Source of the DNA: a virus
IMG/VR virus record: IMGVR_UViG_3300022693_000956
Location: 1 to 29,713 of that record
DNA: 29,713 bases
Strand: one strand, 5' to 3'
Part shown: positions 2,628-27,113 of the stretch, one piece after another
How positions within the stretch are numbered: position 1 is the first letter of the stretch
How the letters are laid out: every line of letters starts with the position of its first letter
Notes under the pieces: model-generated
Database searches by the model: none
Seen by the model: the letters and a program-made list of their open reading frames with translations, nothing else
What the model was told of the DNA's origin: nothing
Translations under genes and position numbers: made by a program

Positions 2628-2911
2628 TTGCAGTCGTAATCCGCGCCGTTATCGTTCAGCCATAGGCACACCCGAACACCCGCAGCCTGGACACGCTCGC
2701 CCCATGCTTCAAGCGCAAGGTCATATTGAAGCGCGGTTGCTTCGTCCGTTGCGATTTCCAAAGGCGGAAGGGGCTTCGGCTCAGTGGCGGCTTCAACGTC
2801 AATCGCAGGCGGGGATAGCACGATCGGGGTAGGCTGCCCGCAGGCGCTCACAGTTAACAGCAGTCCGGCCACCAGCGGCAGCCGCTTCTTCACGTCGCTC
2901 ACTTGCATCAT
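2624..2911 (-). CDS. Rz1-like outer-membrane spanin lipoprotein
   Basis: This 95-residue protein is a predicted o-spanin. In the last step of lysis it joins the i-spanin to fuse the inner and outer membranes. It starts at ATG 2911 (or the adjacent ATG 2908) with AAAGGA just upstream. A basic N-terminus (DVKKR) leads into LPLVAGLLLTVSAC, a clear lipobox with Cys at about residue 22. A Pro-rich stretch follows (PTPIVLSPPAID, then EPKPLPP), as in Rz1 proteins. The gene begins inside the i-spanin gene in another frame and extends past it, the usual overlapping Rz/Rz1 arrangement. Confidence 0.75.
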   Translation of the reverse strand: MMQVSDVKKRLPLVAGLLLTVSACGQPTPIVLSPPAIDVEAATEPKPLPPLEIATDEATALQYDLALEAWGERVQAAGVRVCLWLNDNGADYDCN

Positions 2912-3146
2912 TCGTCCTTTCCGTATCGGCGGCGCGCCGAATGTTCGCAGCCTCGTCAGCTGCGCGGGCCTTCGTGATTGCCTTCGTGGTAGCGCGATCG
3001 AACTGCGCCTGTTTCCACGCAGCCCCATCCGACCGGCCCTTGCAGTAGGCCACCGGAATGCACGCCGCGATGGCGAGGCACAGGGCGAGCCAAAACTTGA
3101 AGGTGAAGCCGGACAGGTAGGATGCGGCGCGGGTGGCGAGGTTCAT
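2799..3146 (-). CDS. Rz-like inner-membrane spanin
   Basis: This 115-residue protein has one transmembrane segment at about residues 17-36 (KFWLALCLAIAACIPVAY). A long periplasmic helix rich in Ala, Arg and Glu follows (AITKARAADEAANIRRAADT), fitting a coiled-coil spanin stalk. The C-terminus has CERLRAAYPD. GGAGG lies ten bases before ATG 3146. The overlapping lipoprotein gene downstream supports the i-spanin call. It is the penultimate gene of the lysis block. Confidence 0.75.
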   Translation of the reverse strand: MNLATRAASYLSGFTFKFWLALCLAIAACIPVAYCKGRSDGAAWKQAQFDRATTKAITKARAADEAANIRRAADTERTNDASERREEAAAAGGRTAVNCERLRAAYPDRAIPACD

Positions 3147-3672: not shown

Positions 3673-4412
3673 TGCAGCGCCTCCGCCATTTTCTCATGAT
3701 ATCGGTTTTTCGCGTAGCCCGCGCCGTTATAGCCCTTGGCGAAGGCACGGCAGCTATCAGGCGAACCAGCACGGCAAGCGCGTAATTCGTCGGACAGACC
3801 GTTCGCCTCAATGTAGCGAACCAGCGCCTCGAGATGCTCCGTCTCGCTCGCCGCCATGCGTCGGGCGAAATCAAGCGCGCTATCGTAATCAAGTGCCTTC
3901 CAATGGAAGCCCATCACCTGCCAGAGGCCCCAAGATGCACTCTCAAGCGCCGCCTCTGTGTCGCGCTCTGCCATGTCTGCGAGAACCTGCCAGCGAGCAT
4001 CGTAGGACTTCGGGTAGGGCTTCTGGCCCCACTTCGGATAACTGAATGCCGTATGCCCGAAACGCCCGCCGGTCTGACGATAGAAGATATGCGGTTCGGG
4101 AAGGATGATCGGACGGCCGGAATTGTCGAAGCTGGTCCCGCCGCTTTCGACCTTGCGCACCATTTCGATATGCTTGACCGAGACGCCCAACCGATCGGCG
4201 GCGCGCTTCATGTCTTCCGCCGTGATGGCCGGCGCTTTGGTATTGACGAACTGCGCGAGGAAAGCGGCGCGGTCGAAAGCTTCCTTCGGCGCAGTCACAA
4301 CAATGGTGCCCGTCGCTTCGTCTATCGCGGCATCAAGCGCCTTGACCTCGGCGGTGGTGAAGCCTCGTTTCAGCATCAGGCGCACTGCGTCAAAGATGAT
4401 CTCGCGTTTCAT
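3669..4412 (-). CDS. Endolysin, N-acetylmuramidase (DUF3380 type)
   Basis: This 247-residue enzyme is predicted to cleave the glycan strand of peptidoglycan. The N-terminal ~60 residues are a helical region (LMLKRGFTTAEVKALDAAID). The catalytic domain then starts around residue 63. VESGG places the likely catalytic Glu at about residue 89, followed by GRPIILPEPHIF, matching the family's GRPxIxFExHxF. Downstream, ASWGLWQVMGFHW and the terminal FAKGYNGAGYAKNRYHEKMA are also family marks. There is no signal peptide, so it needs a holin for release. It starts at ATG 4412. Confidence 0.9.
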   Translation of the reverse strand: MKREIIFDAVRLMLKRGFTTAEVKALDAAIDEATGTIVVTAPKEAFDRAAFLAQFVNTKAPAITAEDMKRAADRLGVSVKHIEMVRKVESGGTSFDNSGRPIILPEPHIFYRQTGGRFGHTAFSYPKWGQKPYPKSYDARWQVLADMAERDTEAALESASWGLWQVMGFHWKALDYDSALDFARRMAASETEHLEALVRYIEANGLSDELRACRAGSPDSCRAFAKGYNGAGYAKNRYHEKMAEALQ

Positions 4413-4425
4413 TGACCTTCCCCCT

Positions 4426-9770: not shown

Positions 9771-10186
9771 CAGACCCTCCACGCCCCGACATATTCATGA
9801 ACGATCATCGGCACGATGCGCTTCCCGTCCTCGTGCCAACCCAGCGCCTCGTTCCCGGCGTGAAGCAGGATCGCGTCGAACCCTTCCGTCCCGCGCACCA
9901 CCGCCAGATCGCCAAGCAGCATCGACATCGGCGCAATCCGCGCACCGGGCAGCACCGCGTCGAGCATTGCCTCAACGTCGTCCCATCCGCGCTTCTTCAT
10001 TACCCGCCGCGCCCCTAACGCGGAACGAATGTCCGGCATCGGCGGGGGACGGTGGCCCATCTTCCGAAGGTGATAACGCGCCATGTGAACGCAGCTGGTC
10101 CGCGCAGCCCAATCCAGCGGACGCTCACGATACTTCGCCAGCGTGGCTTCAGTAGCGCGCTGGCGGCGCAACAGGTCGGGGATCAT
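9770..10186 (-). CDS. Tail assembly peptidase-like protein (DUF6950 type)
   Basis: This 138-residue protein starts at ATG 10186 in an ATGA overlap. After a helical N-terminus, it has DWAARTSCVHMARYHLRKMG (about residues 25-44). The Cys there fits the nucleophile position of NlpC/P60-like tail proteins and DUF6950. Later strands include LLGDLAVVRGTEGFDAILLH and ALGWHEDGKRIVPM. It lies between the hub-type gene and the J-like gene, the slot held by K/NlpC-like proteins in lambdoid tails. I see no complete Cys-His-His triad, so activity is uncertain. Confidence 0.7.
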   Translation of the reverse strand: MIPDLLRRQRATEATLAKYRERPLDWAARTSCVHMARYHLRKMGHRPPPMPDIRSALGARRVMKKRGWDDVEAMLDAVLPGARIAPMSMLLGDLAVVRGTEGFDAILLHAGNEALGWHEDGKRIVPMIVHEYVGAWRV

Positions 10187-10791
10187 TGCCTCACCAAATT
10201 GTTGAGATAGCCACCGAAGCCACCACCGCCGCCATACCCGCCACCGGACACGCCACCCGGCGGCGCAGCCACACCCCATGCAACAGGGGTTTTCAGCCCG
10301 GTCGCCTGATCGTGCCCCGTCTCTCCCGGCCAGATCGACTTGTGCCACGCCGCGCTCAGCGAATTGCCGCTGTTGCGAAGCAGCAGACGTTCTATCATCG
10401 TTCCGACCTCGAACTGGACCGAGCGCAGGCCCTTGCCGATCTCCAGCACGCTGCGATCGATCCGCCCGTCATAATACAGTTCTGCTTCGGTGATCTGCCC
10501 GCTCGGCGCGTCGAACTCCGCGATATAGACCTTCACGCGCGAACCTTGCAGCGCATCGCTGTCGAGCGTTGCGACGGGCGTGTCCTTGGCCGGAAACACG
10601 CTGAAGCCAGTGGAAGGCAATTCGTCGCCCAGACCTTCCGCGATGGCATCCACCGAGGCTATTGATCCCCAAACCGGGTCGCTGCTGCGATAGGTCTCGC
10701 CTTCGAAGGTGAAAAATCCTCCATCTGTCCACAAAGCGGGTCCGGTAGGAAAATCCACCCGCATCAGCACTGCGAGGCCAATTCGCCGCAT
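10183..10791 (-). CDS. Tail tip / hub protein (DUF2163-like)
   Basis: This 202-residue protein starts at ATG 10791 behind a good AAGGAGG. Its N-terminal domain has MRVDFPTGPALWTDGGFFTF and later VKVYIAEFDAPSGQI, YYDGRIDR, and a long strand with KGLRSVQFEVGTMIERLLLR. This is the layout of the phage tail family that precedes the NlpC-like gene in alphaproteobacterial phages. A Gly-rich tail (GGVSGGGYGGGGGFGGYL) ends it. A strong terminator lies 20 bases upstream of its start, so expression from the far late promoter would need read-through or another promoter. Confidence 0.65.
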   Translation of the reverse strand: MRRIGLAVLMRVDFPTGPALWTDGGFFTFEGETYRSSDPVWGSIASVDAIAEGLGDELPSTGFSVFPAKDTPVATLDSDALQGSRVKVYIAEFDAPSGQITEAELYYDGRIDRSVLEIGKGLRSVQFEVGTMIERLLLRNSGNSLSAAWHKSIWPGETGHDQATGLKTPVAWGVAAPPGGVSGGGYGGGGGFGGYLNNLVRQ

Positions 10792-17486: not shown

Positions 17487-17905
17487 TAGTCAGTTCCTTG
17501 TGCTGGTGAGTTGGGGACGAAGAAATCCAAAATCGTCCGAAAGACCTTCAATCCCCCCGGAAGGTCTTCGGGGTCTGCGTCTCGCTCAAAGGCGAGCTGC
17601 GATCGGTTAAACCTGACACCGCCGAACGTCGCCTCGCGCTCCATTTCCGCGATCAGGGCGTCCTTCGTGGCTTTTGCACTCAGCGGTGTAAGGTCGAATA
17701 TCTCGGTGCGAATGCGCGGGCGGGTGAGGCCATCAGTACCGCCTTGATAATAGTTCCTACCGGGCGACACGGTGGTCAGCACAAGCGCAGGAAAGGCGGT
17801 CTTGTCGTTGCTCTTGCGCTCGTTCCAATCAACGGCGGCTCGGCCCTCAGCCCGGCCCCAGGCGATAGGCGCAGCACGCAGGCGGTCTTGCAGGGCTCGC
17901 TCCAT
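17486..17905 (-). CDS. Tail completion / terminator protein (DUF3168 type)
   Basis: This 139-residue protein has an N-terminal helix (MERALQDRLRAAPIAWGRAE), then FPALVLTTVSPGRNYYQGG, RIRTEIFDLTPLSAKATKDA and the closing LKVFRTILDFFV. The sequence PRIRTEIFDLTP and the pattern of a helix between strands are typical of DUF3168 (gp17-like) proteins, which cap the tail tube for joining to the head. It overlaps both neighbours by one base. Confidence 0.85.
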   Translation of the reverse strand: MERALQDRLRAAPIAWGRAEGRAAVDWNERKSNDKTAFPALVLTTVSPGRNYYQGGTDGLTRPRIRTEIFDLTPLSAKATKDALIAEMEREATFGGVRFNRSQLAFERDADPEDLPGGLKVFRTILDFFVPNSPAQGTD

Positions 17906-18264
17906 TAGATCGCCCCTTCAATCCTTGCGCCAACGCGCTCGCCAAAGACTTCGATTACGACACCTTCGTTCGCATCGACCGCTGGTGCGAGCATGGGTTG
18001 CGCGCGGTGATTGACCGTGCCGAACTCCCAAAAATGCCCCTTCCAGTCGCCAATAATCACGCCGACTGTGCCGTCTTCAAACTGCACCGCCTGAATGCTG
18101 TCGCGTAGGTCTCCCCGATCAACAGGCGCTAGTGCGCGCGCATCCTCCGCGATGGGCTCCACCGCGACCAAGCCGTCTTCTTGCAGATTGCGATCAGAGA
18201 CCGCTTCCCCGATGGAGTTGAGATTCGCCAGCGCTTCCTGAACGCCGTCGAGCCGGAACTGCAT
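17905..18264 (-). CDS. HK97 gp10-like neck / tail-joining protein
   Basis: From ATG 18264 the product is 119 residues. ATG 18264 overlaps the upstream stop as TGATG and is preferable to the TTG one codon earlier. It has LDGVQEALANLNSIG, ALAPVDRGDLRDSI (the A-P-V-x-x-G-x-L-R-x-S motif of the gp10 family) and the GHFWEFGTVNHRAQPMLAPA end with E-(F/Y)-G-T. These are strong family marks. It acts at the head-tail junction. Confidence 0.9.
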   Translation of the reverse strand: MQFRLDGVQEALANLNSIGEAVSDRNLQEDGLVAVEPIAEDARALAPVDRGDLRDSIQAVQFEDGTVGVIIGDWKGHFWEFGTVNHRAQPMLAPAVDANEGVVIEVFGERVGARIEGAI

Positions 18265-18509
18265 CAAGCTTCGTCCACTGCCTTTGCGATGTCGGCCTTC
18301 ACAACTGCACCGCTTTTGCCGGTGCCCTTCTTCGGCAGTTCAATGTTCCGCTCTTCGGCTTCGTCTTTCAGTTCGGCCACGGTCGGCTCGACCAGCTCGA
18401 CATGGCCGAAATGAATGTCGGTGGTCGGGCGAGCGTGCTGATACTCTTCGCCCACAGCATGGACGCCGTGCACATTCTGGTGCCAACTCAGGGTTTTCAC
18501 TTTGGGCAT
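18264..18509 (-). CDS. Small head-tail region protein with SAP-like end
   Basis: This 81-residue protein starts at ATG 18509 behind AGGAGG. The N-terminal part (HQNVHGVHAVGEEYQHARPT) is polar. The C-terminal half (VAELKDEAEERNIELPKKGT, then KADIAKAV) resembles the LEM/SAP/Rho-N helix-extended-loop-helix often found on small phage connector proteins. It lies between the head-closure and gp10-like genes, with one plus-strand gene inserted upstream. A nucleic-acid contact role is only suggested. Confidence 0.6.
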   Translation of the reverse strand: MPKVKTLSWHQNVHGVHAVGEEYQHARPTTDIHFGHVELVEPTVAELKDEAEERNIELPKKGTGKSGAVVKADIAKAVDEA

Positions 18510-18554
18510 TTGAGCCTCCTGTTTTAGATAGCGATCGTGTGCAGGGAGAATCGT

Positions 18555-18872
18555 ATGCGTTTGATGCTAATTGGGCTTGTTGCGTTCGGTGTTTCTGGTT
18601 GCGTCGTCACCAAGCCGCAGCTGATTGATCCTTATGCTGTAACTCGGATCGACAGCACAAAATCGCCGAACGACTTTGCCACTTGCGTTGCCAGCGCCCT
18701 TCAAGAAGAGGTGCGGACTGCTCGCGGCAGCACACACGTCATCATCAAAAACCACCTTGGAGTGCACGTCGCGCGATGGGACTTTCTTTCCACCAGCAAC
18801 GGCTCGCAGGCTGAGTTGCGAGCAAGTGCAAAATACGATCCTCAAACTGAGAAGGTAAAAGCCTGCGCTTAA
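18555..18872 (+). CDS. Small lipoprotein on opposite strand, candidate moron
   Basis: This 105-residue protein starts at ATG 18555 behind AGGGAGA. The signal MRLMLIGLVAFGVSGC has a lipobox (VSGC), so it should be acylated and anchored in the envelope. The mature part has NDFATCV near residue 40, GVHVARWDFLS and a C-terminal KVKACA, with two further Cys that may pair. It is clearly related to the lipoprotein at 26039-26350. It lies on the plus strand between minus-strand connector genes and overlaps the next gene's stop. A weak promoter could lie in 18480-18540. Lysogenic conversion or superinfection exclusion is an inference. Confidence 0.7.
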   Translation: MRLMLIGLVAFGVSGCVVTKPQLIDPYAVTRIDSTKSPNDFATCVASALQEEVRTARGSTHVIIKNHLGVHVARWDFLSTSNGSQAELRASAKYDPQTEKVKACA

Positions 18873-19198
18873 CTCGCGCGAACAGCCGTGATTTCCATTT
18901 CACCCCTGTTCGGCGTGTCTGGCGCAATCCCTTCGATGTCCCAAGCCGATCCAGCGTAAGCAATCCGATCCTTCAGCGTGACCGCGCGCGTATCGCTATC
19001 CATCAGTAGCCCGAATGTAGCGACCTGCGAACCTTGTTCCATGGCAGCTTCGCGTCGCTCTGAACCCTTGCCCATCCAGACCTGCGCCCAGCGCTTGAAG
19101 GTGGTGGGCGTCTCGGATTCTACCATCTCGCCGTATTGGTTCTCGGTGGTGGTGAAGCGTTCGAAGGTGATGCGTTTGTCGCGATTGCCAGCCTTCAC
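18869..19198 (-). CDS. Head closure / head-tail adaptor protein
   Basis: This 109-residue protein is read from GTG 19198, which overlaps the preceding stop as GTGA; an ATG at 19225 would overlap by 31 bp. It has the head-closure pattern RDKRITFERF, then NQYGEMVES and RWAQVWMGKGSERREAA, and later DRIAYAGSAWDIEGI. These match the SPP1 gp16/HK97 gp7-like adaptors that plug the connector after packaging. It lies between the connector and gp10-like genes as expected. Confidence 0.85.
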   Translation of the reverse strand: MKAGNRDKRITFERFTTTENQYGEMVESETPTTFKRWAQVWMGKGSERREAAMEQGSQVATFGLLMDSDTRAVTLKDRIAYAGSAWDIEGIAPDTPNRGEMEITAVRAS

Positions 19199-19686
19199 AC
19201 CCGCAAACTCCGGTAGGGACGGCACAGGGCCTCTACAGCCATCATCGCGGCGCTATCGCTCTCTCCGGTGCGCCATTCATCGTATTGCGCTCGAAGGTGC
19301 ACCAGAACGGCGCTGTCGAGGTCCGCAGGGGTGTCGGTGTAACCCGCCGTGTAAGTCAGCAGGACAGGCGTGTTCTGGGCCATGCTGGGCCATGCCGAAA
19401 CCGGATAGGCCCGATCGCGAACGATCCGCGCATCATCAATAAGTCCCGCGCTGCCATCCGAGCCGGTGTAGTCAATGCTCAGGTCGTCCGGGTTCGGGCC
19501 GTAAAACAGCGGCAGGTAGGGACCGAATGCGCTTTCGTCCTGCGCCACCTCGCGCCGGGTCAGCAGCTTGCCGGTGTGGTTCTCGACCCATGCGATTGCC
19601 GCTGCCAGATACTGCGCGATGAGTGCATCTTCTTCATTGTGATCTACCCTCAAATGATTTCGTGCGAGTTCGAGGGTGACAGCCAT
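19195..19686 (-). CDS. Head-tail connector protein (gp6-like)
   Basis: This 163-residue protein has an N-terminal helical bundle: MAVTLELARNHLRVDHNEED, then LIAQYLAAAIAWVENHTGK. This is the start typical of HK97 gp6/SPP1 gp15-type connectors, which bind the portal. The middle contains VLLTYTAGYTDTPADLDSAV, the usual Y-x-A-G-Y and P-x-D-l-x-x-A-V motif, and the end is LRAQYDEW plus a variable tail. It starts at ATG 19686. The family call is strong. Confidence 0.9.
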   Translation of the reverse strand: MAVTLELARNHLRVDHNEEDALIAQYLAAAIAWVENHTGKLLTRREVAQDESAFGPYLPLFYGPNPDDLSIDYTGSDGSAGLIDDARIVRDRAYPVSAWPSMAQNTPVLLTYTAGYTDTPADLDSAVLVHLRAQYDEWRTGESDSAAMMAVEALCRPYRSLRV

Positions 19687-19722
19687 TTACTATTCCTTGC
19701 AACGGTTGGAGGCGGGCATGGG

Positions 19723-19863
19723 TCAGGACTTCTTGCCCTTGGCCTTCGGAGCGGGCTTTTCGTCGGCCTTCTTGTTCTCGCCGGGCAAAAAACCCTCTGA
19801 GTCCGTCATCATCATCTTGGTGCCCACTCGAACCGGACGGTTTGGCTTGTATGCTTTGATCAT
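19723..19863 (-). CDS. 46-residue Lys-rich protein after capsid gene
   Basis: ATG 19863 has AAAGGA just upstream, and TGA ends the frame at 19723. The product starts MIKAYKPNRPVRVGTKMMM, followed by an acidic turn (TDSEGF) and a Lys/Pro/Ala tail (KADEKPAPKAKGKK). It is a small basic protein in the gap between the major capsid and connector genes. It may bind DNA or decorate the head, or could be regulatory; no family is recognised. Its ribosome site lies in a hairpin stem. Confidence 0.6.
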   Translation of the reverse strand: MIKAYKPNRPVRVGTKMMMTDSEGFLPGENKKADEKPAPKAKGKKS

Positions 19864-19870
19864 CTTGGTT

Positions 19871-19931
19871 CCTTTCCTGAAACGCCCGCATCAGGCGCTT
19901 GAGGAAAGGGCGGAGCCTCGCGACCCCGCCC
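19871..19931 (-). promoter_or_regulatory. Tandem hairpins after the capsid gene
   Basis: CCTTTCCT (19871-19878) and AGGAAAGG (19902-19909) are perfect inverted repeats, with CGCC/GGCG pairing inside. This stem holds the ribosome site of the 46-residue gene. Immediately upstream, a second stem GGGCGG / CCGCCC (19908-19931) lies seven bases past the capsid stop at 19939. It resembles a partial terminator or attenuator, which may lower downstream expression relative to capsid. Only TTT follows the second stem. Confidence 0.5.
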
Positions 19932-19938
19932 CAACGTT

Positions 19939-21153
19939 TTAAGCAGCTACGGCAGCGCCGAAGGCACCGTAGACGAAGGCTTCAGGACGCTTGACCGCCA
20001 GAGCGCCGCGTTCCTCGCAGCGGATAGTGATCATGTTCTTCTCGAAGTCATCGTTGTTGGTCGTGGCGATCACGACATTGGCTTCTTCGCGAACGAAGAA
20101 CATTGCGCCGCCCTTGAACGCACCGACCAGCAGGTTACCCTCAAAGGACGGAATGTCCGTCTCGACAACCGGCAGGCCCCACAGTGACGGCGTGAGCGTG
20201 CCTTGCGGGTTGCCGATCAGGTGACGACCAGTGGTATCCTTCTCCGTCTCCATCTTCGCCCAATCGATCGTGTGGAGCACGATGCCGGTCGCAGGAAGGC
20301 GCGCGAGGTGGGTCTGAAGCATGGCAAGGCGCACGTCGTCGATCTGCGTGCGCGCGTCAGGCGCGAACTCAGGAGCGAACGCAGTGGCCTGCGGCACGAT
20401 GCCTTCGATGTTGCCACCGCCGCCCGCGCCGAACAGGATTTCCTGCTCTTCGGCATAGGCGAGGCCATAGCGCATCTCGTCATCCACAGTGCTCTGAAGC
20501 TGCGTGAAGTCGTCGAGGATCTGCTTCGATGCCTTGAACAGGTGGGCGATGGTGACAACCGGGGTCGTCTTCGTCTCGAAGGCGATGGTCGATTCCGGCT
20601 TCAACGTGCCTTCCGGCACCACGGCGGCGTTGTTGGTGAAGCCGGTCTGCTGCACCCAGAAGATCGCCGGAGCGGTCGTGCGGCCCACGCTGATCAGGTC
20701 TCGAATGAAGAGACGCTGGCGCGGGTCGGTCTGGATGCCGGGCATACGCTCGGGCTCGACCACATCAGCGGCCACGCCGCTCGAAAGCAGCGCATTGCGA
20801 ACCGGAGCCGAGTAGCGGGTATTAGCCTGCACTTTGGAAGAGTCGAGGCCCTGGAATGCTTCGCTTTCCACCGCCTGAGCGCCGACCGACTTGCGCGGCT
20901 CGGTGTCGGGGCCGTTACGCACCGACTTCTTCTCGATTTCTTCGAGACGTGCGGTGATCCCGTCCACCTTGTTGGTCGCTTCAGTGTGCTTCGTCAGCAG
21001 GTCATCGACTTCAGCCTTGGTGTTTGCCGAAAGAGTTCCGGCATCCTTGGCTTCCTTCATCGCCGCCTCAGCCTTGCTGCTAAGCTCGTCCGATACGCGC
21101 GACAGATCGGCCGACACGCTCTTCAGCGTGTCGTTCAGTTCCTTATGGTCCAT
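19939..21153 (-). CDS. Major capsid protein (HK97 gp5 type)
   Basis: This 404-residue protein forms the icosahedral shell. The first ~75 residues are a long coiled coil (LKSVSADLSRVSDELSSKAE and on), the delta or internal-scaffold domain removed on maturation. The HK97 fold then starts around residues 115-150 with GVAADVVEPERMPGIQTDPR, LISVGRTTAPAIFWVQQTGF and AHLFKASKQILDDFTQLQS. The late E-loop/A-domain strands include IVLHTIDWAKMETEKDTTG and MITIRCEERGALAVKRPEAF. The FGA end is typical. It lies directly after the protease gene, which probably cleaves it near residue 105-115. Confidence 0.95.
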   Translation of the reverse strand: MDHKELNDTLKSVSADLSRVSDELSSKAEAAMKEAKDAGTLSANTKAEVDDLLTKHTEATNKVDGITARLEEIEKKSVRNGPDTEPRKSVGAQAVESEAFQGLDSSKVQANTRYSAPVRNALLSSGVAADVVEPERMPGIQTDPRQRLFIRDLISVGRTTAPAIFWVQQTGFTNNAAVVPEGTLKPESTIAFETKTTPVVTIAHLFKASKQILDDFTQLQSTVDDEMRYGLAYAEEQEILFGAGGGGNIEGIVPQATAFAPEFAPDARTQIDDVRLAMLQTHLARLPATGIVLHTIDWAKMETEKDTTGRHLIGNPQGTLTPSLWGLPVVETDIPSFEGNLLVGAFKGGAMFFVREEANVVIATTNNDDFEKNMITIRCEERGALAVKRPEAFVYGAFGAAVAA

Positions 21154-21177
21154 GGGAATTTCCTAAATTTGAGTGGG

Positions 21178-22011
21178 CTACGCCCGTTGGAGCTTGAGCT
21201 TCATCGCGGCGGCGCGCAGGTGCGCGAGGCCTTCCAGCTCGTTCAGGTCGTCAGCGCCGGGCATGACAGGATCAGAGGCAGCGCGGGGCATGTCCTCGGA
21301 AAGTTCTTTCATAAGTTTGCGGATTTCCGCTCGAGGCATGTTCGCCTTACGGAGCGCGGCAGCTACTTTGCGGTGAGCGGGCTCCGCGTTGTTCTCGACT
21401 TCCACCAGTTCATCAGCAGGCAGCAGCCGGTCGCAGAATCCCTGCGCCACGGCATCCTCGCCTTTGATAAAAGTCTCAGCGTCCATCATCGCGTGAATGT
21501 CTGACAGAGCGAGATTTGTGCGATCGTTGTAGGACGCCGCGATGACTTCATCGAACACCGTCATATCGTTGTGAGCTTGAAGCATCACTTGCTTGTCGCC
21601 CATGGCGATCCACTGGCTGTTGTGGATGAAAAGCATTCCCGCCTTGGCGATTTGGATGTCATCGCCTGCCATCGCGATGATGGAAGCGGCAGAACCAGCC
21701 ACGCCGACGATCTGAACCGTGACGGGCTCAGGGTGGTTCTTCAGCATATTGAAGATAGCCAGTCCGTCGAAAAGATTGCCGCCAGGCGAGTTGATAATCA
21801 CGGTGATTGGCTTCTCGCCAATGTTGCGAAGTGCGCCTTCGATGCGCTTCGGCGTAACACCTGTTCCGTCCCAGTTTTCGCCGATTTCATCCAAGATGGT
21901 GATCGTGTCAGCCCCCGCCTTAGCGGTGACGGCTCGGTTCCAGCAGTCCAGTGCTTTGGCGTGCGGAACAGGCTGGAGGCCTTTCGGCGGCTCAGGCAGC
22001 TTCAAGTTCAT
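21178..22011 (-). CDS. ClpP-type prohead protease
   Basis: This 277-residue protein starts at ATG 22011 behind GGAGGAAG; the frame is open further upstream but there overlaps the portal. It has the ClpP/SppA-like fold: GVTPKRIEGALRNIG, ITVIINSPGGNLFDGLAIFN (oxyanion region), GVAGSAASIIAMAGD with Ser at about residue 107, and AGMLFIHNSQ with His at about 130. An Asp in KGEDAVAQGFCD may complete the triad. It should cut the capsid N-terminus during maturation. A coiled C-terminal extension (RAEIRKLMKELSEDM) may target it to the prohead. Confidence 0.93.
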   Translation of the reverse strand: MNLKLPEPPKGLQPVPHAKALDCWNRAVTAKAGADTITILDEIGENWDGTGVTPKRIEGALRNIGEKPITVIINSPGGNLFDGLAIFNMLKNHPEPVTVQIVGVAGSAASIIAMAGDDIQIAKAGMLFIHNSQWIAMGDKQVMLQAHNDMTVFDEVIAASYNDRTNLALSDIHAMMDAETFIKGEDAVAQGFCDRLLPADELVEVENNAEPAHRKVAAALRKANMPRAEIRKLMKELSEDMPRAASDPVMPGADDLNELEGLAHLRAAAMKLKLQRA

Positions 22012-23242
22012 TGTCTTCCTCCAGCGGCGGTCCGCCGTTGTGGCCCATCCCATCCACTTCGGTGATAGGAACGTTTTGTTTTTGAATGCGCGGGACATCC
22101 CCGCCTTCGATAGGCGGCAGACCTTCGTGCGCGCGAACCTCGTTTATTGTGATCACGCCAGCATCAAGCAAAGCGCGATAGAACGCCGCGCGTGCCTTGC
22201 TGTCGCCTCTGAGCAAATCTTCGAGATTAAAGGATACCGTGAAGCCTGCGCGCCGATCTTCCGGCGACATCAATTGCTTCACGATTGCCTTCTCGATCTT
22301 CTTCAAACGCTTGCGAAGCGCGAACTTTTGAAAACCCAGAATCTGTTGCTCTAGCCCAGAACCCCAACTGGTCACCTTCTCGGTATGCCCAACCATGAAT
22401 GGGGGGACGTCGAAGGCCCGGCAAATATCTTCCACCGAGAACGCTCGGCTTTCCAGCATTTGGGCTTCGTCAGGCCGAAAGGATAGCGACTCCCACTTCA
22501 TGCCGTCGTCGAGAAGCATAGGGTTGCCGGTATTGCGCGCCCCTTGATATTTTTCGCGCATCAGTTTTTCGAAAACCGCGCGCTGGTCGCCCGTAAATGA
22601 ACGCTCAGTGTGCATGTAGCCGCTGGGGTGCATCCCGTTAGCGAAGGTCGCTCCTGCCGCTCTTTCAACAGCCTGAGCGGTGCCAAAAGTGTTTCTCAGC
22701 ACTGCAATGGGCGACATCCCGCCCAGAGCATTGCCGCCTTTTCCGCGAATGTGGAAAATGCCATCTTCGAAAGACTGCTTTCGCCTGCCTTCTTCGTACC
22801 AAGTATAGCGAATGCGCCCACCAGTGACCCGCTCGACGCTCATGCCATCCGGGCGGATCGGCGTTAGGGCGATGATGCTTCCGTCCGCACGCCGGTCGAT
22901 CTTCGCGTAAGCATTGCCCTGAAGCTCTAAGCCGAGCGTCATTTGCTCCCAGAAATCCACCTCTGTCTGGTCAGCGTTCGGGTCTGACAGAATGCCCTGT
23001 AGCGGATGCTCTGCCCGGACCTTGATAGAGCCCTGCTTTTTGTAAACATCGCAGCTGAGCGAACTGATCGTGCCGCTCAGCAGAGAAACACAGCCCCAAG
23101 CCGCTGAGAGTCCGAGAACTGACGAGGAAGTAACATTCTCTTTTGTGACCGTCTCGCCACCGCCCAGAGCCGCGTACAATTCAGCATCAGCAAGTCCGAA
23201 GGTTCTCCCGACCCATTGGTAGGCGCTGCTCCAAATGCTCAC
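21992..23242 (-). CDS. Portal protein
   Basis: This 416-residue protein is read from GTG 23242, overlapping the terminase stop as GTGA; a TTG at 23263 is less likely. It shows the HK97 portal pattern: [20 protein letters not shown] near the N-terminus, [18 protein letters not shown] (about residues 87-104), and the FVxP-region helix [18 protein letters not shown]. Later come [18 protein letters not shown] and [20 protein letters not shown]. It forms the dodecameric DNA gate at one vertex and ends in NGGPPLEE. It is flanked by TerL and protease, as in HK97. Confidence 0.95.
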
Positions 23243-24927
23243 GCGGCCAGCCCCGCTAGCCAATCATCCGTCGAGACACTGCCACCCGCTTCAGGGTTCC
23301 TCGCCATTAGCATGACGGCGTTGAACATGGCAGAAAGCGGATCAATCTTTGCGCGGCCAGCGGCCTGCTTCGTAATCAGCATCGCGCTACCTCGCATTTC
23401 AACCTTGGCGTTACCGACACACCAGCTCATCATCGGCTGACCGCTGTGGTAAAGCGTGCCGTCCTTCAGCTTCCGCTCGGACCCAGCGATCGCACCGTTC
23501 AATTTGTAACCCTGCTGCACAGCAACCACTTGCTCGCCAGCGATTTCGCGCTCGGCTAGTTCGTCCACGATTGCCGCAATCCCGGCCGCGTCCACGCCGA
23601 CCGCCGCCGCATCAGGGAACAGACCCGCATCGCGAACCCGCTCCACAATATCGGCCACCTCGTACACGTCCTGCGTCGGCTCGACGCATATCGTCAGATC
23701 GCCATCTTTTGCGAAGTCTCGCAAAGTCGGCGCGATTTCCTTCCGCCGCTGCAACACGTCATCGTGCGCCCAGGCATGGCTCCAAAGCAGCCAGTGCCTA
23801 GTCTCCCTACAGCGGCCCAGCACGGCCAAACCCAAAAGGTCGTCAAGTCCACCGCCGTCGATCCCGACCACAGCAACCTCGCTGCGCTCCAGCAGACCGT
23901 CGAGCGTCAAACCCCCTTCGACAGCAGCGTCCTGCCAATATCGACCACCGGCCCAAGCATCATTCCTGAGACCTAGCCCGATCTCGACGTTCAGGTGCTT
24001 CGCGAGGAAAACCTGCTTTGAGCCATCGTCGGCATCGCGGACTTGCTTGAACTGGTCTTCCAGCCATTCCCGATCGACAGAAACGCCGATGTTGGGGTTC
24101 GTGACGTAGAAATTAGCAGGCTTCAGATAATCCTGCCGCTTCAACATTTCTTCTGGGAACTCGTAAAGCACCCCAAGGCTCTTAGGGTCGCGCACCGCGC
24201 CGTCGCGGACGTTTCGGAAGTAATTCAGTTTGGCCTTGAAGACCCCGGCAGGTGCCTCATCCGCTTGTGTCGATAGGTAAATGGTGAAGCCTTCAGGCCG
24301 GGACACCTGCCCACCTGTAGCTTCCCGTAGCATCGCATCGGCTTTTGACTTTTTCCCGAATAGCCAAAGCTCATCGACCAATACGCCAGTGGCTTTCTTC
24401 CCTGAAACCGTATCACTGTCCGCCGCTACCACCTTCAGCACCGCGCCAGTCTGGCGATGCGTGATGGTGCGAATATGATCCTGCACATGAAAGAGGGCTT
24501 CTAGATCGTCGTCAGCCTTCACCATGTCTCGCGCTGGCTGAAAACAATTGTTCGCTACCTCCACCGTCGGGGCAAGGATCAGAAACTCAGCCGACTTGCG
24601 CCAATTCCGTATCAGCGCGGTCATCATAATCGCAGCGGCGATCGTGCTCTTCGTGTTTTTCTTGCTGACCAGCAGCATATACTCGCGGATCAGCCGCCGC
24701 CCGGTCTCAGCATCGTAAGATCCGAAAACCGCAGCCGCAAAGTCCATAATCCATGGCTCGCAGCATTCGCCAATCGTCGGGCTTCCCGCCACATCCACGA
24801 TACGCAGCGCGCGGAACACTTCCATCGCCGCCTCGGCCTCGCTGGGAAACAGCGGGGCGAAGGGAATCATGGATTGTCGTTTGACGATCCGTTGACGCCA
24901 GTCAGGGCAGGCGGTTGACCATTCCAC
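23239..24927 (-). CDS. Terminase large subunit
   Basis: This 562-residue packaging motor and nuclease has a Walker A-like [11 protein letters not shown] (about residues 86-95), with the Gly-less KKNTKS form of the HK97 TerL group. Walker B is [11 protein letters not shown] (about 181-191). The coupling strand [14 protein letters not shown] carries the ST motif. The nuclease part holds the metal-binding acids [11 protein letters not shown] (about 353-363) and [13 protein letters not shown] (about 438-450), plus the Asp in [14 protein letters not shown]. It starts at GTG 24927, overlapping the previous TAG as TAGTG; ATG 24870 is an alternative start. Confidence 0.95.
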
Positions 24928-25214
24928 TAATTTTGCTCTGCGAGGTCCGCTGCTGCACTAAGTCGGCGGGCCATATGTCTCGCCGCCTCAGGGGTAAGAG
25001 CCCCTCCTTCAATAGAAAAACTTGCTCCAGGATTGAAAGGCTCAGCAGACATTGCCAAACCCAAAAAGACTTCATTGCCGACGGCCGCGCAGCCGAACGC
25101 CCTAAAGCGCTGCCAAGCCGTCCAATCAAACCACGAAGAAAAATGTTTCGGCCGTGGACGCTCGGAATCTTTAGGCGGCTCAATGGCGAGAGTTAATCCA
25201 AACTCGTTCTCCAT
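24927..25214 (-). CDS. Small protein between terminase genes
   Basis: This 95-residue protein starts at ATG 25214 behind GGAGGTGACG. It has [35 protein letters not shown] and a C-terminal helix ([20 protein letters not shown]). I recognise no family. It is inserted between the TerS-like gene (three bases upstream) and TerL, so it is cotranslated with packaging genes. An accessory role in packaging is inferred only from context. Confidence 0.6.
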
Positions 25215-25216
25215 CG

Positions 25217-25543
25217 TCACCTCCGGTTATCGACCACCAGTTTCGGCGACTGCGGAACAGCGAAGCGACCCTTTGCAGCAGCATCCGCCGCATCCTGCTT
25301 CTCTTCCTTCTTTCCCTTCGCCGCCTCGCCCGCACGAGCATGAACATATGGGGCGGCAGCCTGGGCCATTGCACGCCGCACCTCATGTGCCTGCTCTTCG
25401 TCCCGCATCACCGCGAGCATAAAGTCCAACGGAGAGAGGTCTTCATTGACCTTTTTTCGTGCGGAAGCCTCACACGCCTTAATGGCGTCGGACACGGCTT
25501 TGGTCTTGCGACCAGCTCCGGGCCGCGATCCACCTCTGGGCAT
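25217..25543 (-). CDS. Probable terminase small subunit
   Basis: This 108-residue protein begins with MPRGGSRPGAGRKTK, the basic GGxRPGAGRK motif found at the start of many phage small terminases. A charged helical body follows (DAIKACEASARKKVNEDLSP, then LDFMLAVMRDEEQAHEVRRA), which suits an oligomeric DNA recogniser. A low-complexity Lys/Ala end follows. It recognises phage DNA for TerL if the call is right. The position just after HNH and before TerL supports this. The start is ATG 25543. Confidence 0.75.
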   Translation of the reverse strand: MPRGGSRPGAGRKTKAVSDAIKACEASARKKVNEDLSPLDFMLAVMRDEEQAHEVRRAMAQAAAPYVHARAGEAAKGKKEEKQDAADAAAKGRFAVPQSPKLVVDNRR

Positions 25544-25643
25544 TTGATTAAACTCCTACGGGGTCAAAAATTCAAAGGGACCGGAAATAATCTCTGCGTG
25601 AGTACCCCGCCGCCACGCAGCCCCCTTGCACTCCTGAACTTTC

Positions 25644-26009
25644 TCAGTCCCCCCGCTCCATCCTCTGCTTGTGCTTGTCATGGCAGGGCGACTTACAGAG
25701 GGTCTGAAGGTTGTCCGCATCCCAGAACAGCCGCTCATTGCCCCTGTGCGGCTTGACGTGATCGCAGACGAGGACCCCTTTGGGTTGGCTTACTCTTCCG
25801 CACATTTGGCAGGTGAAGGCATCCCTGATGAACGTAGCCCAGCGCAGTCGCTTCCATCTCGCCAGCTTATACCAGCCTGCTGTCCCGTCTCTTGGCCTCT
25901 CGCGTTGAATACCGCGCGGGTCAGACGGAAGGTGGCGGATAGAGTTGCCAAGCGAAGCGACCTGAGACTTAAGAGCTTTGAGCTTTGTCATATCGTTCGT
26001 GCTTGCCAT
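25644..26009 (-). CDS. Packaging-associated HNH endonuclease
   Basis: This 121-residue protein has the HNH core RDAFTCQMCGRV, then LVCDHVKPHRGNERLFWDAD and NLQTLCKSPCHDKHK. The two CxxC-type pairs bind structural zinc, and DHVKPHRG with the last His coordinate the catalytic metal. HNH proteins of this kind beside TerS/TerL help terminase cut DNA in HK97-like phages. ATG 26009 is taken as the start, although ATG 25991 is possible; neither has a strong ribosome site. It is divergent from a lipoprotein gene only 29 bp away. Confidence 0.9.
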   Translation of the reverse strand: MASTNDMTKLKALKSQVASLGNSIRHLPSDPRGIQRERPRDGTAGWYKLARWKRLRWATFIRDAFTCQMCGRVSQPKGVLVCDHVKPHRGNERLFWDADNLQTLCKSPCHDKHKQRMERGD

Positions 26010-26038
26010 CGGTGTTTGAGCGAGGCAGTCTCTTGGCC

Positions 26039-26350
26039 ATGCGCTACCTCATCGCTCTGCTCGCTCTGGCCACTTCAGCCTGCACCTCATTCGGAGCGCT
26101 TCAGTCTAGCCCTGTCGATAGCGTCGTGCGGTCGTCCAAGTCAGTCGATCAATTCGCCGCCTGCGTCTCTCGCGAGGTAGGCAAGGCAACCATTCCAGCA
26201 GAAGATGGCGCGCCAATGATCGCAGTAACGAACACTTACGGCAGTCCTCTTGCGACCTTCACCTTCTACCCTGACGGTTCGGGCTCGCGCGCTGATGTGC
26301 GGAAGCATTCCGGTCTGGCAGCGGTCGAGTTTGTGGAGGACTGCGCTTAG
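26039..26350 (+). CDS. Small lipoprotein on opposite strand, candidate moron
   Basis: This 103-residue protein starts at ATG 26039. MRYLIALLALATSAC is a classic lipoprotein signal with Cys at residue 15. The mature part has KSVDQFAACVSREVGKA, a strand pair with NTYGSPLATFTFYPD, then GSGSRADVRKH and a C-terminal FVEDCA. The FA-x-CV motif, the late strands and the final C-A match the lipoprotein at 18555-18872. It diverges from the HNH gene and stands alone on the plus strand in the packaging region. An envelope role in lysogeny is inferred. Confidence 0.65.
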   Translation: MRYLIALLALATSACTSFGALQSSPVDSVVRSSKSVDQFAACVSREVGKATIPAEDGAPMIAVTNTYGSPLATFTFYPDGSGSRADVRKHSGLAAVEFVEDCA

Positions 26351-26528: not shown

Positions 26529-27113
26529 TCAAGCAGCTTTTAATCTGACCACGCGCGGAGCATCAACACGCGCCAACATGGCGAGCCCTTCCAATGCCAG
26601 TTCGAGCGCGCTGGCATCTGCCGGATCAATAATCGCCCTAGGCGTCCTGTGAGCGAAGGTGAGCGCGTCAAGCCAGGTCGGCCCGTGGTCAGGATGCACA
26701 TCGATCACCAAGGCGTCGAAATAACGGCGCTGAAGCCGACCCAGACGGTTGAGGCTGTCCAGTGAACGGTTAAGCCATTCTTCGCGCTCCCGCGCCTTCT
26801 CTGGGCACATGGGGACATTGCCGCCGCCAGATCGGTCAGCAAGCGGATTGAAGTAGCCGCCGATCTCGTATGCGGACCAATAAGCCTTCGCGATACGGCG
26901 CGCGGTGTCGAGCATGGCCTTGGCATCCTGACCATCGCCCAGAAGCCCTGACTGATAGGCGCGCCCGATCGCATCGCATCCGTCCTGACCGTAGAGAGCC
27001 TGGATGGCCTGAGCGTGTTCGGTGCCTCGATCATAGGTCGCTGCAATGGATCTCGAAAGGCGACCGCTCTTGGTGCGCTTGCCCGACTTCTTGGGGCGTC
27101 CTCGCTTCGCCAT
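26529..27113 (-). CDS. Conserved phage protein of unknown function
   Basis: This 194-residue protein has a basic start (AKRGRPKKSGKRTKSGRLSR). Helical segments follow with GQDGCDAIGRAYQSGLLG, AKAMLDTARRIAKAYWSAYE and, near the end, RRYFDALVIDVHPDHGPTWL. The RGRPKK start, like an AT-hook, suggests nucleic acid contact. It resembles an uncharacterised family of alphaproteobacterial phages found before the packaging genes. It could be a late regulator, but nothing proves it. Confidence 0.65.
   Translation of the reverse strand: MAKRGRPKKSGKRTKSGRLSRSIAATYDRGTEHAQAIQALYGQDGCDAIGRAYQSGLLGDGQDAKAMLDTARRIAKAYWSAYEIGGYFNPLADRSGGGNVPMCPEKAREREEWLNRSLDSLNRLGRLQRRYFDALVIDVHPDHGPTWLDALTFAHRTPRAIIDPADASALELALEGLAMLARVDAPRVVRLKAA

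Follow-up and report, generated by a model that had tools for sequence, protein, structure and literature searches.

Two related lipoprotein genes of a phrog_914-like family on the opposite strand of a phage late operon: candidate prophage morons of probably separate origin

Results

The window analysed here, the whole 29,713-nucleotide stretch of the IMG/VR virus record IMGVR_UViG_3300022693_000956, contains two small lipoprotein genes on the plus strand, each of which occupies a gap between minus-strand late genes. Gene 1 (18555..18872, +) encodes a lipoprotein of 105 aa (P0001) with lipobox Cys16 and invariant residues Lys36, Cys44 and Cys104, while gene 2 (26039..26350, +) encodes one of 103 aa (P0002) with lipobox Cys15 and invariant residues Lys34, Cys42 and Cys102. 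Both proteins possess a lipobox (VSGC in gene 1, TSAC in gene 2) and, as the initial annotation had reported, an F-A-x-C-V motif (FATCV at residues 41-45 of gene 1, 18675..18689, +; FAACV at residues 39-43 of gene 2, 26153..26167, +) and a terminal C-A. A ribosome-binding-like sequence, AGGGAGA (18543..18549, +), lies 5 nt ahead of the gene 1 ATG.

On one side, gene 1 diverges from a small gene (18264..18509, -) that stands ahead of the neck1 gene (17905-18267, -), with only 45 nt from start to start; on the other it converges on the head closure gene Hc1 (18869..19225, -; phrog_25, 1.3e-13), and the stop codons of the two genes overlap (4 nt). Gene 2 diverges from an HNH endonuclease gene (25644..26009, -; phrog_589, 1.7e-27) at a start-to-start distance of 29 nt, its slot is adjoined by the terminase small subunit gene (25217..25543, -; phrog_641, 1.7e-17), and on its far side lies an uncharacterised gene (26529..27113, -) without a PHROG or Pfam family. 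The GC content of gene 1 (0.53) is below that of most flanking late genes (0.58-0.63), as would be expected of cargo, and that of gene 2 (0.60) is not lowered relative to its flanking late genes. A promoter scan at the two genes, a weak one, gave nothing convincing, and a search for a motif common to the upstream regions of both genes and their relatives found no convincing promoter. Outside the late operon, the window also contains a Staphylococcal-nuclease-like gene (1877-2323, +; Pfam SNase, 1.7e-8).

The relatedness of the two proteins, noted initially by eye, is borne out by profile comparison. Pairwise BLASTP of the two is not significant (E=9.5); within the contig each finds the other by phmmer (E about 5e-6), and both match phrog_914 (4.6e-6 for gene 1, 1.1e-4 for gene 2). 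The initial annotation had named noise-level similarity outside the signal peptide as the result that would undo the relationship, and the similarity held when the mature proteins were compared: a phmmer search with the mature part of gene 1, among ~22,000 ORFs and 400 shuffles, found that of gene 2 at E=0.002 with the next match at E of at least 1.2. A mature-only profile built from 15 sphingomonad relatives, from which signal peptides and window sequences had been excluded, recovered gene 1 at 2.2e-11 and gene 2 at 6.3e-9 (next match E=4.4), and a gamma-proteobacterial mature-only profile recovered them at 2.8e-4 and 2.3e-3 (next match 3.5). An hhalign comparison of alignments A2 and A3 was set aside, given that the window proteins are present in both. 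On these sequence comparisons, we regard genes 1 and 2 as encoding true homologs, also outside the signal peptide. GC-rich phage DNA often has antisense ORFs, many of which are listed in the window, and so the two genes could in principle be chance ORFs with a fortuitous resemblance; yet independent genes encode homologs of their mature domains (1e-9 to 1e-11), and the slot of gene 1 is occupied in another prophage by its ortholog, such that this reading is effectively refuted.

AlphaFold2, for which the input comprised only the window proteins and proteins from fetched related loci, predicts the same beta-alpha-beta4-alpha topology for both proteins, with a pLDDT of about 95 over the mature domain. 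The lipobox Cys, K36, C44 and C104 (C16, K36, C44 and C104 in alignment A3) are invariant across alpha- and gamma-proteobacterial members, and the two mature cysteines are located in the two helices of the predicted fold, where Cys44 and Cys104 probably form a disulphide. In Foldseek searches against the PDB, a KA1-type domain was the best match for both models, at a TM of at most 0.52; this resemblance is too weak for conclusions on function. Among viral proteins, Foldseek gave its best match to one of phiAH14a, in which a phrog_914-type gene lies directly ahead of a tail assembly gene.

We place the window proteins in a phrog_914-like family on the strength of the mature-domain profile match and of the lipobox Cys, the Lys, and the mid and C-terminal Cys. 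PADLOC, Pfam and NCBIfam searches with them gave nothing convincing, and single-protein searches of phage records and IMG/VR found no close relatives of either; the sole IMG/VR match to the sphingomonad relative L225 (L237) was rejected, its similarity being confined to the signal peptide. In phages of Pseudomonas, Luteibacter and Serratia, the lipoprotein gene shares the strand of the tail operon and is located between its genes K and I, and 80/80 fetched IMG/VR contigs are consistent with this arrangement. Neither window gene is in the K-I slot, which does not in itself define the protein family, gene 1 being at Hc1/neck1 and gene 2 beside HNH/TerS. Four Pseudomonas phage contigs (L313-L315 and L317, about 4001-4420) encode a 140-aa lipoprotein with a signal peptide near-identical to that of the K-I family, followed by an unassigned mature domain of another type; this suggests that mature domains have been swapped while the signal peptide was conserved, and that the cargo is exchangeable.

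Copies of the family also occur outside recognisable phage genes in Pseudomonas genomes, and two genomes of sphingomonads (L233 and L234, about 9800-10200) have a weakly matching lipoprotein gene flanked by gatCA and gatB, hinting at a host-chromosomal branch. Such copies on host chromosomes, away from any recognisable prophage, show roles of the family in the host as well. No match to phrog_914 was found in related viral records (0/50), some of which may be fragments. An E. coli control sequence also matches phrog_914. Two further opposite-strand lipoprotein genes were observed in prophages: a small one (phrog_9924; L117:14521-14769, -) in a prophage of Pseudomonas viridiflava whose major capsid protein marks it as related, and one in a Bosea lupini prophage (L086:16301-16669, -), where it is flanked by a tail gene and the tape-measure gene and carries FAAC by eye. 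The latter is not recognised by the family profiles and is not counted as a member; it is possibly an analogous moron.

Of 398 sphingomonad-family genomes searched by profile, 26 gave matches, the weakest of them doubtful. Nine late-operon members were found among sphingomonads, counting genes 1 and 2, and 9/9 lie on the strand opposite to the late operon, in four slots. Five (L187, L188, L194, L227 and L230) are in the J/K slot; L225 is in the Hc1/neck1 slot, converging on Hc1 exactly as gene 1 does; and L228 adjoins the major tail protein gene. A single ancestral insertion may underlie all five J/K cases, and the effective number behind 9/9 is consequently between four and nine. Elsewhere, L192 starts directly behind a CI-like repressor gene (HTH plus S24-peptidase), in the manner of rexAB behind lambda cI, while L229 adjoins a phage integrase gene and L189 is near one.

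The initial annotation had left the pair as either duplicated or separately acquired, and the lipoprotein phylogeny does not support the former. In the maximum-likelihood tree, which has long branches, gene 1 groups with L225 (support 97/89), and the two window proteins are united in 0% of 200 bootstrap trees, which speaks against a recent tandem duplication in this phage; the best scores of gene 2 are to L195, L225, L192 and L190. Since gene 1 pairs with its syntenic ortholog in another prophage and never with gene 2, two separate acquisitions appear to fit the sequences better than duplication.

Discussion

The interpretation of the two genes as envelope cargo, already proposed from sequence, is strengthened by our analyses, which place two related lipoproteins on the wrong strand, each in a gap between late genes. 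They are extra genes of the late operon, absent from relatives and placed for independent expression, features which describe a moron by architecture only. Opposite-strand, post-repressor and integrase-side niches hold lysogen-expressed genes, which makes the moron interpretation of the family in sphingomonad prophages the safe one; for genes 1 and 2 we consider it very probable that they are independently expressed morons. Published prophage transcriptomes describe morons as typically located either downstream of cI or antisense to lytic genes (PMC7067206).

A mechanism can be proposed in three steps. Judging from strand and position, each gene would have transcription of its own, uncoupled from that of the late operon, and the lipoprotein could thus be made in the lysogen while the virion genes are silent; the lipobox predicts that the product would be anchored by lipid; and the anchored protein may then interfere with incoming phages, which is the least secure step, and two divergent copies would cover two targets. 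To the overall reading, in which genes 1 and 2 are prophage morons of the phrog_914-like family that were acquired separately, are made in the lysogen, alter its envelope and perhaps exclude rival phages, we give close to an even chance, if marginally less.

As regards function, superinfection exclusion appears the likeliest single role of the two genes, although we hold it only tentatively, at somewhat below even. It is supported by position, because the proven exclusion lipoproteins Cor of T1 and Rtp45 of Rtp are likewise encoded opposite to the tail operon, next to J. Five relatives are found beside J on the opposite strand; the window genes, also on the opposite strand, are at head-module sites instead. 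Counting against an exclusion moron, the Pseudomonas, Luteibacter and Serratia genes are co-directional with the tail operon, and host-chromosomal relatives exist. Additionally, across 49 Pseudomonas loci the distance between lipoproteins tracks that of the neighbouring I (Spearman 0.50) and shows a Spearman correlation of about 0 to 0.14 with the C-terminal third of J. The simplest form of receptor-matched exclusion is thus disfavoured, at least in Pseudomonas, by the missing co-variation with the J tip, with which a block at the stage of DNA entry, or a different role in the envelope, would be compatible. A PADLOC scan gave no match for the window lipoproteins. A bolder version, in which the family is a new and widespread class of exclusion lipoproteins with a KA1-like fold, unrelated to Cor or Llp, exchangeable across alpha- and gamma-proteobacterial prophages and directed here at two targets, seems to us rather doubtful.

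Several alternative functions may be considered. One is a lysogenic-conversion lipoprotein that, like Bor or Lom, changes the envelope to the benefit of the host (through stress, surface or adhesion) and is not aimed at other phages; the same genomic niches, the host-chromosomal relatives and the missing co-variation with the J tip speak for it. However, the gamma-phage gene is almost fixed in the K-I tail-tip slot and five sphingomonad loci place the gene between K and J, locations that pure host-fitness cargo would not need; we consider this reading unlikely on balance. The same-strand K-I slot, found in all Pseudomonas contigs examined, would instead suit a late lytic periplasmic lipoprotein with a part in virion assembly or release, one that stops progeny from re-adsorbing to debris or aids maturation of the tail tip, a role made improbable by the opposite strand of all sphingomonad late-operon cases, by the repressor-operon position of L192, and by the gene not being essential, as phrog_914 is matched in none of those 50 related viral records, some of which may be fragments. 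Outer-membrane spanins (Rz1-like) of lysis systems are also small phage lipoproteins. However, a different pair of genes beside the endolysin, for an overlapping membrane protein and lipoprotein (2799-3146 and 2624-2893, -) without a Pfam match, fits Rz/Rz1 by architecture only, and the products of genes 1 and 2 are predicted folded alpha/beta domains, encoded at a distance from the lysis genes and on the other strand, so that a spanin is a highly implausible identity for them.

Under the moron reading, the wrong-strand lipoprotein pair represents a pattern more general than a single phage, as the prophage relatives show, and the uncharacterised phage family phrog_914 acquires a concrete functional hypothesis. 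Prophages of Pseudomonas and sphingomonads, a large set of them, possess a small envelope lipoprotein whose gene is positioned at the tail tip or where lysogens could express it. Should these proteins block superinfection, they would constitute a broad exclusion family beyond the enteric model phages, one that lacks a PADLOC entry and whose fold has so far not been associated with exclusion.

Exclusion lipoproteins of the Cor/Llp/Rtp45 type bind phage receptors from the periplasm (PMC9586334, PMC12685063). Cor of T1 resembles the present family in being a small phage lipoprotein with two mature cysteines whose gene lies near J on the opposite strand; however, it has 75 aa and its mature part lacks detectable homology to the window proteins. 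Rtp45, which blocks LptD, is likewise encoded opposite to the operon of J and beside it, but has 76 aa and is without homology. The gene of Llp, the phage T5 lipoprotein that blocks FhuA from the periplasm, adjoins a receptor-binding protein gene (PMC9586334), and its profile match to the family is confined to the signal peptide (E=1.7). Homology to Llp, Cor or Rtp45 was consequently rejected, there being no similarity between mature domains. STMMW_20121 of prophage ST64B, like the window genes, is antisense to lytic genes, and it has its own promoter and is transcribed in lysogens (PMC7067206); it is a different protein, of unknown function there too. As for phrog_914 itself, this family of unknown function has the lipobox, Lys, mid Cys and terminal Cys in common with the window proteins, although its gamma members are in the same-strand K-I slot whereas the window members, which are distant, occupy head-module sites and face the other way. 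Phage lipoprotein morons are a familiar kind of gene, and the family to which these two belong is a widespread, uncharacterised one.
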